Translations under genes and position numbers: made by a program
Shown: positions 25,184 through 31,662 of the stretch, piece by piece
Numbering within the stretch: position 1 is the stretch's first letter
Layout: each line of letters begins with the position of its first letter
DNA from: a virus
Length of the DNA: 31,683 nucleotides
Direction: 5' to 3' (one strand)
Virus record (IMG/VR): IMGVR_UViG_3300021440_000089
Coordinates: 1-31,683 of that record
The notes under the pieces: model-generated
The model's database searches: none
The model's input: the letters and a program-made list of their open reading frames with translations, nothing else
What the model was told of the DNA's origin: nothing

Positions 25184-25324
25184 CTATATTTTCGAATAAA
25201 ACTCAAAGAAATCTTTCGTTAAAAAGTAAGCTAATCCGAGAAGCACAAACGCTACGATCAATAACGCAATTAAAAATGGAGCGACCCAATCAAAGAAAAA
25301 TCTTCTAAAGCTGAACTTAGTCAT
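25184..25324 (-). CDS. 46-residue single-pass membrane protein
   Basis: Opens MTKFSFRRFFFDWVAP, followed by a hydrophobic helix (FLIALLIVAFVLLGLAYFL) and a short polar tail. The basic N-terminus suggests an N-in orientation. Its ATG shares one base with the previous stop (TAATG), and AGGGG lies upstream. Small phage membrane proteins like this are often lysogeny or exclusion factors, but nothing here identifies the role. Confidence 0.55.
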   Translation of the reverse strand: MTKFSFRRFFFDWVAPFLIALLIVAFVLLGLAYFLTKDFFEFYSKI

Positions 25325-25458
25325 TAGATTCGCCCCTGAAAGGTTTTCGTGAGGCCTTTGTTGACCGCCTTTCCGCGCAATAAAATTGCGTTTGCAAGTT
25401 TCGTTCGATCGACATAACTATGACTGGCTTGCCGCATCAACCCGAAGTAACTATTCAT
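25324..25458 (-). CDS. 44-residue basic protein
   Basis: Starts at an ATG overlapping the HNH stop (ATGA) and ends in TAATG with the next gene, so both junctions are coupled. Sequence runs MNSYFGLMRQASHSYVDRTK to KAVNKGLTKTFQGRI, basic and without a membrane helix. Not recognised. The tight double coupling is the main evidence that it is translated. Confidence 0.5.
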   Translation of the reverse strand: MNSYFGLMRQASHSYVDRTKLANAILLRGKAVNKGLTKTFQGRI

Positions 25459-25943
25459 ATATGCGTCCATGTTTTTCTTGAAATAATTGCAATTATGCTT
25501 TGATGAGTTACTCCAAACCCTCTCGCAAGTGATCTTGCTCCATCAATCCTTGATCGACTTTTGAACCTTTTCCGTATTTCAATTACCTGTTCGGCGGTAA
25601 GCTTGCTTTTTTCGTTATTTTCTCCGCGCGCATGATTGGCTCTATTTTTTGCGTGCATATCCAATATGTTTTCTTTTTGGGTGCCAGCCGATAAATGATT
25701 TACATTTATACAAGATGGGTTATCGCATTTATGCATAATTACTAGCCCAAAAGGGATGCTTCCATGCATCAATTCGTAATTCACTCTGTGCGCTTTTTTC
25801 CACTTTCCATCCAATCGAATTTGTCCATAGCCGTGCACATCCTTGTAGCCAGTCCAAACAATACATTCTCCAAATGGCTGAGATTTCAGTCTAATTTTTT
25901 CTGCTAGGGTGCGTCTAAATCCAGCCATTTTCAGCAACCTCAA
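25455..25943 (-). CDS. HNH endonuclease (homing type)
   Basis: A 162-residue HNH_3-type nuclease. GYGQIRLDGKWKKAHRVNYELMHG precedes the beta-beta-alpha-metal core VIMHKCDNPSCINVNHL (H71, C73, N75, C78, H83) and GTQKENILDM. The C-terminus (LTAEQVIEIRKRF, then SLARGFGVTHQSIIAII) is a helix-turn-helix DNA-recognition tail. Such free-standing enzymes cut phage DNA at a preferred site and spread by repair. Its start overlaps the antirepressor stop (ATGA), so it sits inside a coupled operon without breaking a neighbour. Confidence 0.88.
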   Translation of the reverse strand: MRLLKMAGFRRTLAEKIRLKSQPFGECIVWTGYKDVHGYGQIRLDGKWKKAHRVNYELMHGSIPFGLVIMHKCDNPSCINVNHLSAGTQKENILDMHAKNRANHARGENNEKSKLTAEQVIEIRKRFKSRSRIDGARSLARGFGVTHQSIIAIISRKTWTHI

Positions 25944-26986
25944 TTCATTAATTTTTTCTGTGAACCGCCAAGCAGCGCGTCACTAACTTTTGCGTGATAT
26001 TCAGTTGTGAGCGTCATAACCATGTACGAGTTTCTTTCTATGTATTTCAGCTTTGTATAAAACGTGTGCGCGAGAGCGGAGCCAAGGTCTCCGTCTTTTA
26101 CAATCGCTAACGCCTTTTTTTCATTCAAAGTTCGAGGGTTGCCGCTCTCGCAGTTGAAGGCGACTTTTTTCTCAAGATGTTCTTTGCAAAGCTCGTAAGC
26201 TTCATAAGCGAGAGAAAATGCTTTTTGCTCTATGGCTTTTTTAATGCGGTCAGTGAACGCAACAGTTGGATTGCTAAGATTGTTAAGTAGCAAGTCGCGA
26301 ACATCAATCGGAGGAGTTTCAGTTTTTAATTCGTAGCTTCCGGTTTTTCGGATAGCAGGCAGCACCTCAGAAAAAACCCAATTCTGAAATTCTTTTGCTT
26401 CTGGCTTATTGCTACGGAAAATAATGCGGTAAAGGTTTGGCTCGTTGATGAAAGTTGCTTCTTGGTTGCCGCCATCGGTAGGGATTACATTTCTTGTAAC
26501 CCCTTTTTCGTCAAGCTGAAATCGTTCAGGAGATGCGACTTTTACACTCAAAACATCGCAAACGTCGCGCAAGCAAAACCAAGGCTCGCTAATAGTTAGC
26601 TGAACGCGGACATTGTGAGAGTCTTTGAATTTAAAAACAGATGGGGAAACTGAGGGTGTAGCTAGGGCGTGATTGTACATAGCATTGTCTCTTGTTAAGG
26701 TGGAGTTATCCGCCTCACTGAGACCAATCAGGGAGGGCGGAACTGTGCGGATTGGTCTACCAGTAACAAGAAACTGGCGCTGCTTGCGCAGCTCCACACA
26801 GCCCACCCATAGGTTTGCCATGCTTTTTTGGACACAAAAAAACCGCGAATTCGCGGTGTGCCCGCTTGTTACATTCGAGAGACCAATCTCGACAGCTGGA
26901 TTTACAGCTGCAAGATTAGCGTAGCTCTGCGATTGATTCATGTCAACAACCTTTTGAAATTGCCTGTTAGCTCCGTGCATTGCCAT
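25940..26986 (-). CDS. BRO-N antirepressor with in-frame regulatory leader
   Basis: The frame is 348 codons from ATG 26986, which has AAGGAG 8 bases upstream. The recognisable protein begins near ATG 26680 (246 residues). It has a BRO-N domain with VFKFKDSHNVRVQLTISEPWFCLRDVCDVL, DEKGVTRN, then EFQNWVFSEVLPAIRKTGSY at about 98-116, and a helical C-terminal domain. BRO-N/Ant proteins inactivate phage repressors and so favour lytic growth. The first ~100 codons read in frame through an intrinsic terminator and a C4-type RNA, so they may act mainly as a translated leader. C4 pairing would cover the ribosome site of 26680. Confidence 0.82.
   Translation of the reverse strand: MAMHGANRQFQKVVDMNQSQSYANLAAVNPAVEIGLSNVTSGHTANSRFFCVQKSMANLWVGCVELRKQRQFLVTGRPIRTVPPSLIGLSEADNSTLTRDNAMYNHALATPSVSPSVFKFKDSHNVRVQLTISEPWFCLRDVCDVLSVKVASPERFQLDEKGVTRNVIPTDGGNQEATFINEPNLYRIIFRSNKPEAKEFQNWVFSEVLPAIRKTGSYELKTETPPIDVRDLLLNNLSNPTVAFTDRIKKAIEQKAFSLAYEAYELCKEHLEKKVAFNCESGNPRTLNEKKALAIVKDGDLGSALAHTFYTKLKYIERNSYMVMTLTTEYHAKVSDALLGGSQKKLMN
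26691..26729 (-). promoter_or_regulatory. C4 target sites (a2/b2) over the antirepressor ribosome site
   Basis: On the minus strand, GATTGGTCTC (26729-26720) and TTAACAAG (26698-26691) are complementary to the a' and b' segments of the RNA at 26735-26808. The second overlaps AAGAG, the likely ribosome site for ATG 26680. Confidence 0.65.
26735..26808 (-). ncRNA. C4-type antisense RNA
   Basis: The minus-strand RNA folds into three stems. The outer stem is 26808-26803 with 26740-26735, continued by CUGUGUGG (26801-26794) with CCGCACAG (26750-26743). Hairpin 1 is GCUGC-GCAA-GCAGC (26792-26779). Hairpin 2 is CCAGU/ACUGG (26777-26760) with loop UUCUUGUU. The loop (b') and the following GUAGACCAAUC (a') are complementary to b/a sites both upstream (26888-26865) and downstream (26729-26691). 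The same arrangement of C4 RNA, with a1/b1 and a2/b2 sites, is known in phages P1 and P7, where C4 blocks antirepressor synthesis. Confidence 0.75.
26836..26857 (-). terminator. Intrinsic terminator inside the antirepressor leader
   Basis: The minus strand reads ACCGCG-AATT-CGCGGT followed by a T run, a 6-bp GC-rich stem. It lies within the open frame, upstream of the C4 element. Confidence 0.75.
26865..26888 (-). promoter_or_regulatory. Upstream C4 target sites (a1/b1)
   Basis: GATTGGTCTC (26888-26879) and GTAACAAG (26872-26865) on the minus strand repeat the downstream targets and are complementary to the C4 segments at 26750-26770. They precede the leader terminator. Confidence 0.55.
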
Positions 26987-27019: not shown

Positions 27020-27625
27020 TTAAGAAATTAACAATCTGCGGACTGGACGCACGGGACGCTCGTCGCCCTTGACGAGGCTGGCGTACTGATAGCCATCGGA
27101 AAAGTCCTGAACGTGGGCGTCGAGGGCGCTGGACTGCGTGCTCGTCCAATACCAAGCGGCTTCAAACGCTTCTGCACCGCCTTCCTTAAAAGCTTCAACG
27201 GTTGTTTGCAATGGGAACTCATCGGTGTACAAATGGCCGGCAGGAATACTTGAAGGGTTGTCGCCGTCACGATACGAACAATAATTTTCTTGTTCGGTTG
27301 GTTTTAGGTTTCGATATTGCAGCTCAACAACATCGCGACTTGGAATTGACCAGCCGCCATCAAGCGCCAAAACTTTTTGAGCAGTTTCACTTCCAGCTTC
27401 AGCCATTGCCGCAGTGTTTGCGACACAATCATTGGTGCTATTTGCGCCTTCGATTTTCTCGCCGTATTTGCCCCAAGTGCCAGTTACTTCCAAAGCTTTT
27501 GGTGCTGTGATAATTGCGAATTTTTGGCCGCCGGTTTGAATAATTCCGGTGAAAAATCCACCCTCAAATGCTTCGCCGATTTGTGGCAGTTCGGTTTCTG
27601 GTACTGCTTTTTTAACTTCTGTCAT
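27020..27625 (-). CDS. DUF1566 (Lcl-domain) protein 1, putative DGR target
   Basis: A 201-residue protein; ATG 27625 has GGAG 6 bases upstream and overlaps the preceding gene. DUF1566/Lcl features: GGWSIPSRDVVEL (about 90-103) and the C-terminal WYWTSTQSSA, VQDFSDG, RPVRPVR frame, a C-type-lectin-like ligand-binding fold. The last 40 residues are encoded by a block nearly identical to the second DUF1566 gene, except at codons of NNC/NNT form. Lcl domains are known DGR-diversified domains. No signal peptide or anchor is seen, so the protein is probably cytoplasmic or carried by the virion. Ligand unknown. Confidence 0.82.
   Translation of the reverse strand: MTEVKKAVPETELPQIGEAFEGGFFTGIIQTGGQKFAIITAPKALEVTGTWGKYGEKIEGANSTNDCVANTAAMAEAGSETAQKVLALDGGWSIPSRDVVELQYRNLKPTEQENYCSYRDGDNPSSIPAGHLYTDEFPLQTTVEAFKEGGAEAFEAAWYWTSTQSSALDAHVQDFSDGYQYASLVKGDERPVRPVRRLLIS
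27036..27156 (-). repeat. Variable repeat 1 (121 bp), DGR-like
   Basis: Minus-strand block from TTGGTATTGG to CAGTCCGCAG, shared with 31097-31214. The flanks are identical; 16 substitutions, all at first or second codon positions, and one extra codon occur in the middle. Variable codons here include CTC, GAC, CAC, TAT, TAC, GCC, AGC, CTC, GGC and GAC, as expected from mutated AAC/AAT template codons. The GC-rich 3' end (CGTCCCGTGCGTCCAGTC) resembles an initiation-of-mutagenic-homing region. Confidence 0.75.
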
Positions 27626-27919
27626 GTTGCGCTCCACTTTGTTGGTTTAAAAATCTCTGAAACATTCCAAGCCTTGAATTCAATAACTGCGCTCTTTTTT
27701 CAAGAACTTTTAACGATCCCTTTGTGCTGCCAGATAACAATCTCGTTTTTGAAACAAGATCTTTGTAATCAATCGCAGCAAGGTAATCGCCGTTAATAAC
27801 TGACTGGGGGGGCGACCCTTGCAAAATCCCATTACGCTCAAATGAAGCTGTTTAATTTGCTCTGCAATTACAGCTTTTTCTTGCGCTAACTCAGCTCTGG
27901 TTTTCTTTGCTTTGCCCAT
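27612..27919 (-). CDS. Small helical protein, split by a C7 tract (frameshift)
   Basis: The first frame (MGKAKKTRAELAQEKAVIAE to GFCKGRPP) runs from 27919 and continues as low-quality sequence to 27710. A second frame (QSVINGDYLAAIDYKDLVSK to NQQSGAQHDRS) runs to 27612 and overlaps the next ATG by 14 bases. They meet at CCCCCCC (27812-27806), placed as C-CCC-CCC relative to the first frame, the X-XXY-YYZ pattern for -1 slippage. One extra C would also join them into a protein of about 102 residues. Programmed frameshift, phase variation, mutation and sequencing error are all possible. Family unknown. Confidence 0.55.
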
Positions 27920-27934
27920 GATTCACCGCCAAGA

Positions 27935-29596
27935 TTAAGCCGCTTTCGCGGGCAATTTATTTGCCATCTTTAAGCATTCAAGCGCGACCTTAAAATCAGT
28001 TCCGTTGCGCAAACATTCTGCATAAGCGGTCTCAACTTTTTTCAAACAAGCATTGAATCCGGCGTGAAAATCGCTCATATCTACGAAGGCTTCTTGTTCA
28101 GAATCCTCCACAAAAACTTTTTGGAATGATTCTTCAAAGCTTGGAGCTTGAGCGGCAAATTGTTCGTAATCGGCGGGAACAGAAGCTAGTGCCGTTACTG
28201 GCTGCGAAACTTCCGTTTGCGTTTTTGCTTCCGCTTCCTTGCGCTCTTTTTCTAATTGCTCGTCCGCAAGTTTTTTTGCTTCACTTTGAATGCGTTCCTG
28301 CTCTGATTTTTGGTGGTCAGCAACGCGCTTTTCAGCAATTGCGCGAACGTAATCAGTTTCCTTTTCGCAAAGCTGTTGCAGGTCAGCAAAAAGAAAATCC
28401 ATTTTCGGCGCGATCATTCGCACTTGTTCGCGATTCATTTCGATGTCGCTAGCAAGTTTATTGGATTCAATTTTGGCGTTAGCAATCATGGAGCTGACAG
28501 CGCTGCGCATATTGTCGAACGAGCTTTTGCCTTTAATTGCAGCGGCAAAGTCTGCGGAAAATGCAGGCACATGAAGCGGAGAAAGTTTTGCGTTAAGTGC
28601 CGCAACATGCTCAGAAACAATCCTTTTTGCTTCAGCAATTATTTCGGCCTTAATCTCTTCGTTGCGGGTTTTGATCTGCTTGTCTTCCGCGAGACGAGCC
28701 TTTGCAATAAAGCCTTTAATTTCGGTTAAGTCTTTTGCAAAAGCATCAACATCACCCATTTCGCCCATCACGCGAGAAATTAAATTCTCGCAATTTTCCT
28801 CGGCGGTTTTGTAGGCTTTAATTCGCGCTTTAGCATCCTCGAAATCTTGATCGGTTTTTAATTGTTCTTTTGAGCGCTCGACCAATTTCAGTGCAGCCTC
28901 TTTAAAAAACGAAAGGTTGCTTGTAAGGCTTACGCCGTTGCTGAAATCAATTTTGTAATTGATTGCTGGCAATGTATCGACTGGTGCGGCGATTGCTTTT
29001 GGCGCATCGGCTTCTGGCACAGCATAATCTGCCAAATCAATTGCAAATTGTTTCCAGCCTGCGATCAGCTTTTCACGCATTTCGGGCGATCCGAAATAAT
29101 CCAAATACACAAAATTACTCTCTGTGCCATCGCTCACTACAAATGTAATTTTTTCTGCGCCGGAAACTAGAAGCTGTTGCTCAAGCTGCCAAACATAATG
29201 CAAATCTAAATTATGTTCGCGCACGCTCTTTGCCAGACTTTCATTCCAAAGCTTGTGTTCAAATCCAACATTGTCGCCAGCGGTCAGCCCGTCAAAGCTC
29301 GCCAGCAATGGCAGACCTTCAACCTCTGCAAATCCGGTGACTGGGTAAAGGTCTTCACCAATAAGCGCCTCAACAAAAGGGCGAGCTTTCGCTTCGGCTT
29401 CATGACCTTTGTTAAAAATTGCTTGTTTAAAATCGTCAATTTCGGGCGCAATTCCGGTTGCCTTTAATTTCAACAAGGCGTCGCGGCTTTGGTATTTGCT
29501 AGCGCCCATCATCGCGGGCGCTTCGCTTGCGGTGAAACATTTTGCGCGTTGTTCGTGCCACTCTTTTGAGCCTTGAATCAAATTTAAAATTTTCAT
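27935..29596 (-). CDS. YqaJ-type recombination exonuclease with long C-terminal coiled coil
   Basis: A 553-residue protein. Residues 1-190 are a lambda-Exo/YqaJ nuclease: TASEAPAMMG, E66 in GHEAE, D102 in ASFDG, E113-x-K115 in FEHKLW, and the WQLEQQLLVSG helix (Q137, Q140). It degrades one strand of double-stranded ends so the partner annealase can load. Residues about 215-480 are a helical, coiled-coil region resembling DUF1351, usually a separate phage protein near Bet/RecT, here fused. Start overlaps the bet stop (ATGA), indicating coupled synthesis with the annealase. Confidence 0.88.
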   Translation of the reverse strand: MKILNLIQGSKEWHEQRAKCFTASEAPAMMGASKYQSRDALLKLKATGIAPEIDDFKQAIFNKGHEAEAKARPFVEALIGEDLYPVTGFAEVEGLPLLASFDGLTAGDNVGFEHKLWNESLAKSVREHNLDLHYVWQLEQQLLVSGAEKITFVVSDGTESNFVYLDYFGSPEMREKLIAGWKQFAIDLADYAVPEADAPKAIAAPVDTLPAINYKIDFSNGVSLTSNLSFFKEAALKLVERSKEQLKTDQDFEDAKARIKAYKTAEENCENLISRVMGEMGDVDAFAKDLTEIKGFIAKARLAEDKQIKTRNEEIKAEIIAEAKRIVSEHVAALNAKLSPLHVPAFSADFAAAIKGKSSFDNMRSAVSSMIANAKIESNKLASDIEMNREQVRMIAPKMDFLFADLQQLCEKETDYVRAIAEKRVADHQKSEQERIQSEAKKLADEQLEKERKEAEAKTQTEVSQPVTALASVPADYEQFAAQAPSFEESFQKVFVEDSEQEAFVDMSDFHAGFNACLKKVETAYAECLRNGTDFKVALECLKMANKLPAKAA

Positions 29597-30393
29597 TGCG
29601 CCACCTCTACAGCTTCGCCTTCGATTGGCGCTGCGATTGATTTGATTGTTTTAATTTGCTCTTCGGTTAGCTGCGCCTTACTGCCGACCATTGCAATAAT
29701 TGCGTCGGAAGTTTTCTTGCCGCTCTGAATTAACTTTTCCCATGCCGGAAAATTCTTTTCAAAATCAGTCTGAGAATACTCGACAATCGCGGGGCGAATT
29801 GGCTCGACGTTGCTTTGCTTTGGCGTGATGTCCTTTTCGATAATTCTTTCCGCTTCGTCTTCGTCGTAAATCCCCGAAAATCCGAACGCTACGCGAGCAC
29901 ACTGAATTAATGCTTTGTGTCTGTGCAATCTTTTTGGGTGCGTATCCCAAGGAGTTACAAAATTTGCAGCTCTGCAAACCTCGTCAAAATATTCGCGGAT
30001 AATTGTTGGTTTTTCGCGATCCTTTCTAAAAAGAATACATTCGACCCATTCGTGCGCGGTCTTTCCTTTGTGAGAAATAATTTCAGGCGAATAATTAAAT
30101 TCGACACCGTTATATTGTGGGTGCTCATTTATAATTCGACTCCAACCATCAACACCAACAACAGGCACAATCCCGTTTTGCTTATCTGGGTAAGCGTAAA
30201 TTTCTTTTGTCCAAGGATTTAACCCGTATTGCTTTGCGACAATTAAAAGCGCACTCATTTGCGCATCGGTCACTTGCCCTTTAAACGCGGTGGCCTTTAA
30301 TGTTTCCATTAATTCCGTTCCACTAATTCCAAGCTCAAGCTTGGCTGCAAGCGCACCCGCCAAACTTGTAAGTTGTGTTGCTGGCATATTCAT
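29593..30393 (-). CDS. bet: Bet/RecT-type single-strand annealing protein
   Basis: A 266-residue recombinase of the lambda Redbeta family. Diagnostic segments: VTDAQMSALLIVAKQYGLNPWTKEIYAYPDKQNGIVPVVGVDGW (about 41-84), then EWVECILFRKDR, WDTHPKRLHRHKALIQCARVAFGFSGIYDEDEAERI (about 147-182). It anneals complementary strands made by the exonuclease next to it. Both start and stop overlap neighbours by ATGA, within the leftward early operon. Confidence 0.93.
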   Translation of the reverse strand: MNMPATQLTSLAGALAAKLELGISGTELMETLKATAFKGQVTDAQMSALLIVAKQYGLNPWTKEIYAYPDKQNGIVPVVGVDGWSRIINEHPQYNGVEFNYSPEIISHKGKTAHEWVECILFRKDREKPTIIREYFDEVCRAANFVTPWDTHPKRLHRHKALIQCARVAFGFSGIYDEDEAERIIEKDITPKQSNVEPIRPAIVEYSQTDFEKNFPAWEKLIQSGKKTSDAIIAMVGSKAQLTEEQIKTIKSIAAPIEGEAVEVAQ

Positions 30394-30596
30394 ACATCGC
30401 TCCTAAAAATTTCATGAGCCAGACCCTCTGGCACGCGCTTAAATTTTGAAACCATCATGTCGTACAGGCGAATCCTTGCTGACATAATTGTTTCTCCATC
30501 ACAAACAAATCCCATGTGAATTCCTTTCTCGGTTTTCTTAACATCCCTGTAAAAAATGCAGACTCCTTTTTCTGTTTTCGGAATCGAAACTTCCAT
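30390..30596 (-). CDS. Hypothetical 68-residue protein
   Basis: Starts at ATG 30596, two bases after the previous stop (TGAaaATG), with GGGGAG about 10 bases upstream inside that gene; a GTG at 30614 is a less likely start. Compact alpha/beta pattern (MEVSIPKTEKGVCIFYRDV, then FVCDGETIMSARIRLYDMM). Its stop overlaps the bet start by ATGA. No family recognised; an accessory to the recombination genes is possible. Confidence 0.55.
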   Translation of the reverse strand: MEVSIPKTEKGVCIFYRDVKKTEKGIHMGFVCDGETIMSARIRLYDMMVSKFKRVPEGLAHEIFRSDV

Positions 30597-30598
30597 TT

Positions 30599-30721
30599 TC
30601 AAATTGCTCCCCACACAATAAATTCAAGATTTTTCCTTGCTTGAATTCGATCAACTCCAACTGCACAAATGTTTCCAAATCTTGCAATAATTAACCCTGC
30701 GGTGGTTGAGTAAGTGACCAT
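30599..30721 (-). CDS. 40-residue protein in the leftward operon
   Basis: Begins MVTYSTTAGLIIARFGNICA and ends EFIVWGAI. AAAGGATGG precedes its ATG, and it lies 2 bases from each neighbour, so it is likely translated by coupling. Mildly hydrophobic, with no clear membrane helix. Unknown function. Confidence 0.45.
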   Translation of the reverse strand: MVTYSTTAGLIIARFGNICAVGVDRIQARKNLEFIVWGAI

Positions 30722-30723
30722 TT

Positions 30724-31047
30724 TTAATTCCATCCTTTTGCTAAATTAATCAAAGTTTTTGCTGCGTCTTCCATAATTTCTTGCATCAAAAGCAAATCAT
30801 TTGAAGTGATTGCTTCGAGCGCCTTATCGAACCTATCATCATTGATCACGCAATCTCGCAAATCTGCGAAGCTCAATTTTTTACCGTACAGCTCAACATT
30901 AATTTCTTTTCCGTATCGAAGGTCTGAGCTATGCGCAGCTAACTCAATGCGACGATTTTCAGCGCCCGCTCGCCACTCGCGAGCTGCGTGAATGTTTTCC
31001 ATATCAAAATCAATTTCAGCTCTTGAGTTTCTGCAGGGCATATTCAT
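30724..31047 (-). CDS. Hypothetical 107-residue helical protein
   Basis: A charged helical protein (MENIHAAREWRAGAENRRIE, DLRDCVINDDRFDKALEAITSNDLLLMQEIMEDA). GGTGA precedes the ATG by about 6 bases. It lies directly downstream of the second DUF1566 gene, where canonical DGRs often keep avd, but it is acidic and lacks the basic four-helix pattern expected for Avd, so I do not call it that. Unknown function. Confidence 0.55.
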   Translation of the reverse strand: MNMPCRNSRAEIDFDMENIHAAREWRAGAENRRIELAAHSSDLRYGKEINVELYGKKLSFADLRDCVINDDRFDKALEAITSNDLLLMQEIMEDAAKTLINLAKGWN

Positions 31048-31083
31048 GGCGTCACCAAAAATAAAAAGAAAATTAAAAAATAA

Positions 31084-31662
31084 TTAAATTAAAAAGCTGC
31101 GGACTGGACGCACGGGACGCTCGTAGTACTTGTCGTCGTAGAACTGAATGCCATCGGAAAAGTCCTGAACGTAGGCGCCGTAGGCGCTGGACTGCGTGCT
31201 CGTCCAATACCAAGGATCTAAATCAAATAATTCTTTTGATGCGGCTTGTAGTGCGCGCATTTCGCGGCGAGCGCCAAGAAACCAATCGCTAAAACCATTA
31301 ATGGTTAACGCTGCGCATTTTTCAGCAGCAGGGAATGTGTGGCTCGACTCAACCATCAATTTTGTATTTGTTGCACCGTCCATATCGGAGGTGTCGAGGC
31401 TTACGTTCGTTGGGCCAAACGTTGCGGTGAATTCGTGTTCTTTGTCTGCAACGATGATTGCGCGATTACGTCCGCTTGCTGCGTCCGGAAGAATTGCGCC
31501 TAGGTAGCCGCCTTGTTCTTTCCAGAGGGCGCCGATCAATGGGATCGGGCTTGCCATAACTTGGCCGAGTGTTTGGCTCATCAATTTTTGAAAGGCTTGA
31601 TCTGCTGCCTTGGCTGCGATTTCGTCAAACTGCGATTGGTCTAGCGTTAATTTGAGTTCCAT
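31084..31662 (-). CDS. DUF1566 (Lcl-domain) protein 2, putative DGR target
   Basis: A 192-residue protein; ATG preceded by CCGGAG. The N-terminal 45 residues are helical (LTLDQSQFDEIAAKAADQAF), perhaps for oligomerisation. The middle holds INGFSDWFLGARREMRALQ, and the end holds WYWTSTQSSA, VQDFSDG and RPVRPVR, the DUF1566 ligand-binding scaffold. The variable residues are mostly Tyr/Asp/Gly (YG-Y, then I-Q-FYDDKYY), a composition typical of DGR-selected binding surfaces. It shares little with protein 1 outside the C-terminal block. No signal peptide. It is the most upstream leftward gene in view. Confidence 0.82.
   Translation of the reverse strand: MELKLTLDQSQFDEIAAKAADQAFQKLMSQTLGQVMASPIPLIGALWKEQGGYLGAILPDAASGRNRAIIVADKEHEFTATFGPTNVSLDTSDMDGATNTKLMVESSHTFPAAEKCAALTINGFSDWFLGARREMRALQAASKELFDLDPWYWTSTQSSAYGAYVQDFSDGIQFYDDKYYERPVRPVRSFLI
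31097..31214 (-). repeat. Variable repeat 2 (118 bp), DGR-like
   Basis: Partner of 27036-27156. Variable codons here are TAC, GGC, TAC, ATT, TTC, TAC, GAC, GAC, TAC and TAC, all NNC or NNT, with one codon fewer than repeat 1. No third-position difference occurs between the aligned codons of the two copies. Confidence 0.75.

Follow-up and report, generated by a model that had tools for sequence, protein, structure and literature searches.

Two otherwise different genes in the early leftward operon of a temperate phage end in almost the same stretch of coding sequence, which raises the question of whether a retroelement of the DGR type diversifies both proteins or did so only in the past. DUF1566 is among the commonest annotations of DGR targets and Pseudomonas is rich in DGRs (PMC6642488); a survey of more than 30,000 DGRs found that phage-encoded lineages mainly diversify host attachment proteins (PMC8144416). 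The DNA analysed here (the window) is the whole of the linear IMG/VR record IMGVR_UViG_3300021440_000089, 31,683 bp in length. PHROG matches to portal, scaffolding, major head, head closure Hc3, DNA ejection and tail spike proteins, together with an integrase recognised by Pfam, mark it as a P22-like temperate podophage. An earlier note on this DNA had placed the two genes in the early leftward operon of such a phage, and rightly so; the same operon position is retained in the relatives.

Paired variable repeats in genes A and B

The two genes, referred to as A and B, their variable repeats (VRs) and the recombination genes between them are as follows.

31084..31662, minus strand: gene A, DGR target-type protein of 192 amino acids (PHROG 4245; Pfam Lcl_C E 1e-7, under the Pfam cut-off)
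31097..31214, minus strand: VR of gene A, 118 bp, near-identical to the block in gene B
29593..30393, minus strand: RecT annealing protein, operon context between A and B (Pfam RecT E 1.5e-27)
27935..29596, minus strand: YqaJ-type exonuclease, operon context between A and B (Pfam YqaJ E 3e-13)
27020..27637, minus strand: gene B, DGR target-type protein of 205 amino acids, or 201 from the ATG at 27625 (PHROG 4245; similarity to B proteins)
27036..27156, minus strand: VR of gene B, 121 bp, near-identical to the block in gene A

At full length the A and B proteins are only about 30% identical. Their genes end in the 118- and 121-bp blocks with identical flanks that had been described before: the 5' flank CTTGGTATTGGACGAGCACGCAGTCCAGCGCC and the 3' flank GAGCGTCCCGTGCGTCCAGTCCGCAG are the same in both, and divergence begins immediately outside. 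An 18-base probe from the 5' flank matches in the window, even when 3 mismatches are allowed, at VR-A and VR-B only (0.01 expected), and a search of viral contigs for the exact VR-flank pattern gave no match. Within the 32-codon core, codon alignment gives 15 substitutions, spread over 10 codons, and a codon in B that A lacks; all of the changed codons are NNC or NNT, and the third base is identical at all 32 aligned codons. The earlier count of 16 substitutions depends on a gap placed inside a codon and falls to 15, while its statement that none lies at position 3 holds. A 3' block, GTCCGCAG, is common to A, B and most of the relatives' template repeats (TRs) and VRs and is a candidate initiation-of-mutagenic-homing site.

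Gene A encodes an Lcl C-terminal (C-type-lectin-like) domain and an N-terminal helix. The AlphaFold models of A (pLDDT 89) and B (pLDDT 81.5) both have their best PDB match in the Legionella Lcl C-terminal domain 8q4e, at E 1.4e-5 for A and at a weak E of 0.04 for B, and a profile search with the A family also scores best on this domain (E 3e-8). On these models both are predicted to have the C-type-lectin fold of a DGR target, with 8q4e as the probable closest solved fold. Legionella Lcl is a bacterial adhesin domain, whereas A and B are phage early-operon proteins in which inspection by eye reveals no evident signal peptide, so that an intracellular binding partner is plausible. A putative binding function other than receptor switching is consistent with the early-operon location, and a PADLOC search for a defence role of A and B gave no match. 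In a phylogenetic tree the window's B falls inside the B clade (support 98/88); gene A is unplaced, on a branch of 2.77 with an unsupported join, and queried against viral contigs it returned a single distant match.

Intact DGRs in related phages

A query with B finds matches in 28 viral contigs, 6 bacterial genomes (Aquitalea, Pseudomonas, Limnobacter) and 29 Pseudomonas phage records, and a reverse transcriptase (RT) scores above the Pfam cut-off in 25 of the 29 IMG/VR records reached via A or B. The relatives are equipped with two or three target genes, the third often further upstream, with Avd, an accessory protein that is part of many DGRs, and with an RT-15 RNA, a TR and an RT. Like those of the window, their targets lie in the early operon beside recombination genes and away from the tail. 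Self-comparison reveals one TR per intact locus, which matches at least two VRs, and 82-100% of the mismatches fall at TR adenines. The order in Cruim01 is a hypothetical protein (in the place that ERF has in Medea1), exonuclease, SSB and, further on, an A-type gene, B, a bAvd-family protein, RT-15 RNA and RT. The Rfam match to RT-15 stops about where the TR begins, and TR and 5' end of the RT overlap. RT-15 lies immediately upstream of the TR or abuts it (L206 11010-11202; L038 11689-11877; L043 11622-11809), which suggests that the TR RNA has RT-15 as its 5' leader.

Read in the frame of the VR, the relatives' templates have AAC or AAT at nearly all of the places that vary in the window. With the adenines of these templates taken as a proxy for the window's own template, 14 of the 15 changes between A and B fall at template-adenine positions, which make up 30 of the 96 sites (hypergeometric P = 7e-8); confined to codon positions 1 and 2, the test gives P = 2e-5. 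The single exception is the first base of codon 8, a non-adenine in every template read. By the same proxy both genes carry, at their 3' ends, a VR that differs at TR-adenine sites, as is described of DGR targets. The view of the earlier note that both proteins are, or formerly were, diversified by a DGR is supported by this adenine pattern and by the TR and RT of the relatives. The template and linked RT that it had proposed to look for are present in related genomes, with adenine-restricted TR/VR mismatches, and absent from the window.

The window's B is 51-59% identical to the B proteins of most DGR-bearing phages, which include temperate phages of Pseudomonas and related prophages (Cruim01, PP179333; SC_8_H2H8_2017, MT121966; prophages L038-L043). 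These systems resemble the window in their paired Lcl-type targets, their early-operon position near recombination genes and the use of the same VR codons. They possess avd, RT-15, TR and a full RT where the window has scars only; in the window, unlike in these DGRs, A and B are 3.4 kb apart with RecT and YqaJ between them, and A is no clear orthologue of the usual neighbour. SC_8_H2H8_2017 (L205 1-24224) holds a complete DGR with two targets and an RT 91% identical to that of Cruim01, unannotated in the public record. Burkholderia phage Magia (MT701587) likewise has a lectin-fold target annotated as a potential DGR target, an Avd-like protein and an RT in an early region with RecT, but its cassette is complete and its target proteins are different. 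A draw of 400 Pseudomonas genomes yielded RT matches in 33, and 2 of the 38 matches are tails. Megablast of the right part of the window against phages gave no match. None of the relatives reached through terminase and YqaJ is close to the phage while carrying gene A, and among the stretches fetched from them a DGR is present only in L103 and L122.

Probable scars and a cassette downstream of gene B

No match to RVT_1 (Pfam) was obtained in the record, no RT-15 (Rfam) in the window up to E = 1, and no third, TR-like copy of the repeat in the window by flank probe and self-comparison. The window thus has neither a TR nor a DGR-type RT, and of Avd it has only a 12-nt match to the start of the gene. 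Downstream of B it contains the following features.

26975..26986, minus strand: putative left scar ATGGCAATGCAC, the same as the first four avd codons (MAMH) and now the start of the antirepressor ORF
26836..26911, minus strand: isrK RNA of a C4 antirepressor control region (Rfam RF01394, 55.8 bits, above the gathering score)
26729..26814, minus strand: C4 antisense RNA (Rfam RF01695, 54.3 bits, above the gathering score)
25940..26986, minus strand: Bro-N/Ant-type antirepressor ORF (Pfam Bro-N E 8.5e-20; PHROG anti-repressor E 2e-39)
25455..25943, minus strand: HNH endonuclease gene with TTG start (Pfam HNH_3 E 1.2e-11; PHROG HNH endonuclease E 3.5e-31)
25324..25470, minus strand: right scar, an ORF with the last 43 codons of a DGR RT (codons at positions 25455-25327; tblastn)

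The right-hand ORF ends NSYFGLMRQASHSYVDRTKLANAILLRGKAVNKGLTKTFQGRI and matches the extreme C-terminus of six RTs (tblastn, E 4e-11 to 8e-8), the catalytic core being absent. It lies 1.5 kb downstream of B and directly behind the HNH gene, which encodes 157 amino acids from the ATG at 25928, terminates at the RT remnant and has, by Pfam HNH_3 and PHROG HNH, the HNH domain of a homing endonuclease. In the relatives B is followed by avd, which in many of them opens with ATGGCAATGCAYAC; the ORF that follows B in the window opens with ATGGCAATGCAC. This match is probably the other scar, though at 12 nt it is short, while the evidence from the RT tail is strong. The antirepressor ORF occupies the place of avd, RT-15 and TR. 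C4 and isrK ahead of the Bro-N antirepressor (26729-26924, minus strand) form a P1/P22-type control unit at the former DGR site. VR-bearing target genes and a truncated RT at the expected place are what a DGR remnant consists of, and with its retroelement reduced to a remnant the locus does not amount to an autonomous DGR. The earlier note had left the choice between 'are' and 'were' diversified; 'were' fits this phage far better, since a replacement has removed RT and TR and left scars at both edges.

Probable loss of the retroelement and its recurrence

An HNH gene stands immediately before an RT tail of 29-43 codons in five other records, namely the isolated phages Medea1 and Aurca01, vB_PaeS-D14O (D14O), a metagenomic phage contig (L002) and a Pseudomonas genome (G039). 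Like the window, Medea1, Aurca01 and D14O retain the target gene or genes and have an RT tail, here of 29-34 codons, directly behind the HNH; unlike the window, they have no antirepressor cassette there. Aurca01 and the RT-bearing Cruim01 both come from the host Pseudomonas syringae CC1557. An HNH_3-type group comprises the genes of the window, Medea1/Aurca01 (NUMOD4-HNH_3) and G039, which are 34-54% alike, and a PHROG 374-type group those of L002 and D14O, which are 48% alike; judged from these sequences, the arrangements probably go back to at least two, and perhaps five, separate events. In L002 a 655-bp HNH segment stands where L028, which is about 95% identical to it, has 1,042 bp that include most of the TR and the RT's first 88%. 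In Aurca01 the HNH segment is 519 bp long and stands where L012 has about 1.7 kb comprising avd, RT-15, TR and most of the RT. Recombination between TR and VR was considered as the cause of the Aurca01 deletion and rejected, as the sequence after B is unlike that after the TR.

HNH genes of these types were found within 1.5 kb of none of the 82 loci with a full-length RT, a set with many near-duplicates and a count that is biased because the HNH queries came from tail loci, so that other HNH types would escape it; in Magia an HNH of another kind lies about 1 kb downstream from the RT. Searches with RT tails favour C-terminal remnants by design, whereas the cases of the window, Medea1, Aurca01 and L002 come from B-based searches or from the window itself and are free of this bias. 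One bacterial locus, G307 (L249 1495-2214), has a B-like target gene and an RT tail within about 100 bp without an HNH, and in another, G641 (L266 4414-4674), the RT C-terminal tail survives as a small ORF, with a DUF1566-type gene 3.5 kb away and no recognised HNH beside it. The idea that an HNH is required for RT loss was rejected on account of these two tails, and HNH eviction is therefore common in this sample and not obligatory. D3-like Pseudomonas phages such as PMG1 (L218 5001-5489) have a single Lcl/DUF1566-like gene beside the cI region; PMG1 is absent among the RT matches listed, and the D3-like genes may be further orphan targets.

For crAss-like phages, two papers report fragmentation or deletion of the RT (PMC11054128, PMC12386605). 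As in the window, Epsilon crAss-like phages are reported to keep the VR target gene while the RT is fragmented or deleted; unlike in the window, the target is described as receptor-binding, and the available part of that report makes no mention of HNH displacement (PMC11054128). No report of displacement of a DGR by an HNH was found in the open-licence literature, and in a paper that covers both DGRs and homing endonucleases the two are unconnected subjects.

It is proposed that A and B are the targets of a lost DGR whose RT and TR were replaced by a C4/isrK-antirepressor-HNH cassette, a reading to which a probability of about 0.8 is assigned. It builds on differences that follow the adenine pattern, on relatives in which the system is intact, on the remaining RT tail and on a record that contains neither TR nor RT core. 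The ancestor would have carried, in the early leftward operon of a P22-like temperate phage, a DGR in the order B-avd-RT15/TR-RT. Its RT would have made copies of the TR RNA that were faulty at adenines, and these would have replaced the 3' ends of A and B, leading to two lectin-like proteins on one scaffold with different random residues. Later, the stretch from the fifth avd codon to about RT codon 345 would have been exchanged for the cassette, possibly through HNH-driven double-strand-break repair; the recurrent position is consistent with an HNH enzyme that may have cut an intact RT at the insertion point and was then copied in. The loss was probably complete and, as TR and RT core are gone, A and B would now be fixed variants.

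A and B might instead still be diversified, by an intact TR and RT beyond the end of the contig or in trans from another DGR prophage in the host. The contig is fragmentary and stops 21 bp upstream of gene A, so that a relocated RT or TR could lie outside it, and A and B are alike at every silent core position. Medea1 and Aurca01, both without RT core, have identical HNH DNA and A-gene backbones about 99-100% identical, in the midst of which VR-A differs by about 17% (L204 9313-9924; L214 3183-3794); most of these differences are at first and second positions of the usual codons, and a few are silent. Two DGRs can also coexist, as 5 of the 33 positive Pseudomonas genomes have two RT matches. 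However, the relatives with an RT and enough flank have TR and RT directly downstream of B/avd, exactly where the window has its scars, and the requirement that TR and VR match in sequence limits help in trans. The contrast between Medea1 and Aurca01 may reflect either diversification without a resident RT or HNH homing into two phages that already carried different variants, which explains it equally well. Continued diversification is accordingly regarded as unlikely.

The junction between HNH and RT tail is known from the assembled record and could be an assembly chimera of a phage that in reality has a complete DGR there. This is very unlikely, as the start of avd at the left edge and the end of the RT at the right edge have the expected sequence, order and orientation, and an HNH gene is likewise followed by an RT tail in the complete genomes of the isolated Medea1 and Aurca01. 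Short blocks in paralogues can be made alike by gene conversion, which in combination with positive selection on surface residues might produce the pattern in ordinary paralogues without any reverse transcription. Zero silent differences against 15 at first and second positions, 14 of them at template adenines, make this scarcely credible, as does the RT remnant downstream of B; the homologues have TR, RT and adenine-specific mismatches, and the TR comparison contradicts it.

For the lost DGR, the third bases shared by A and B throughout the core imply that the last copying, and hence the loss, was recent relative to silent drift. The retained RT tails have no frame breaks, and those examined for selection have few changes. 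Taken with the shared silent sites, the unbroken tails mean that the loss was recent or that copying continues in trans. A wider and rather unlikely proposal is that the conserved 3' end of the DGR RT is a recurrent target of HNH homing endonucleases, which evict RT and template and so fix the targets; the RT tail may then be kept as a small protein, and a DGR prophage in the same host may diversify the orphan targets anew in trans.

What the locus adds is the structure of the replacement and the recurrence of DGR loss at the same place: a system of targeted mutation is seen here after it was lost, its two edges still recognisable and its targets intact. The paired-VR signature reveals DGR targets in genomes where RT-based searches come up empty. 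With the pairs L028/L002 and L012/Aurca01, which differ in the presence of the RT, both the gain from diversifying early, non-tail proteins and the question of whether homing endonucleases prune DGRs become directly testable.
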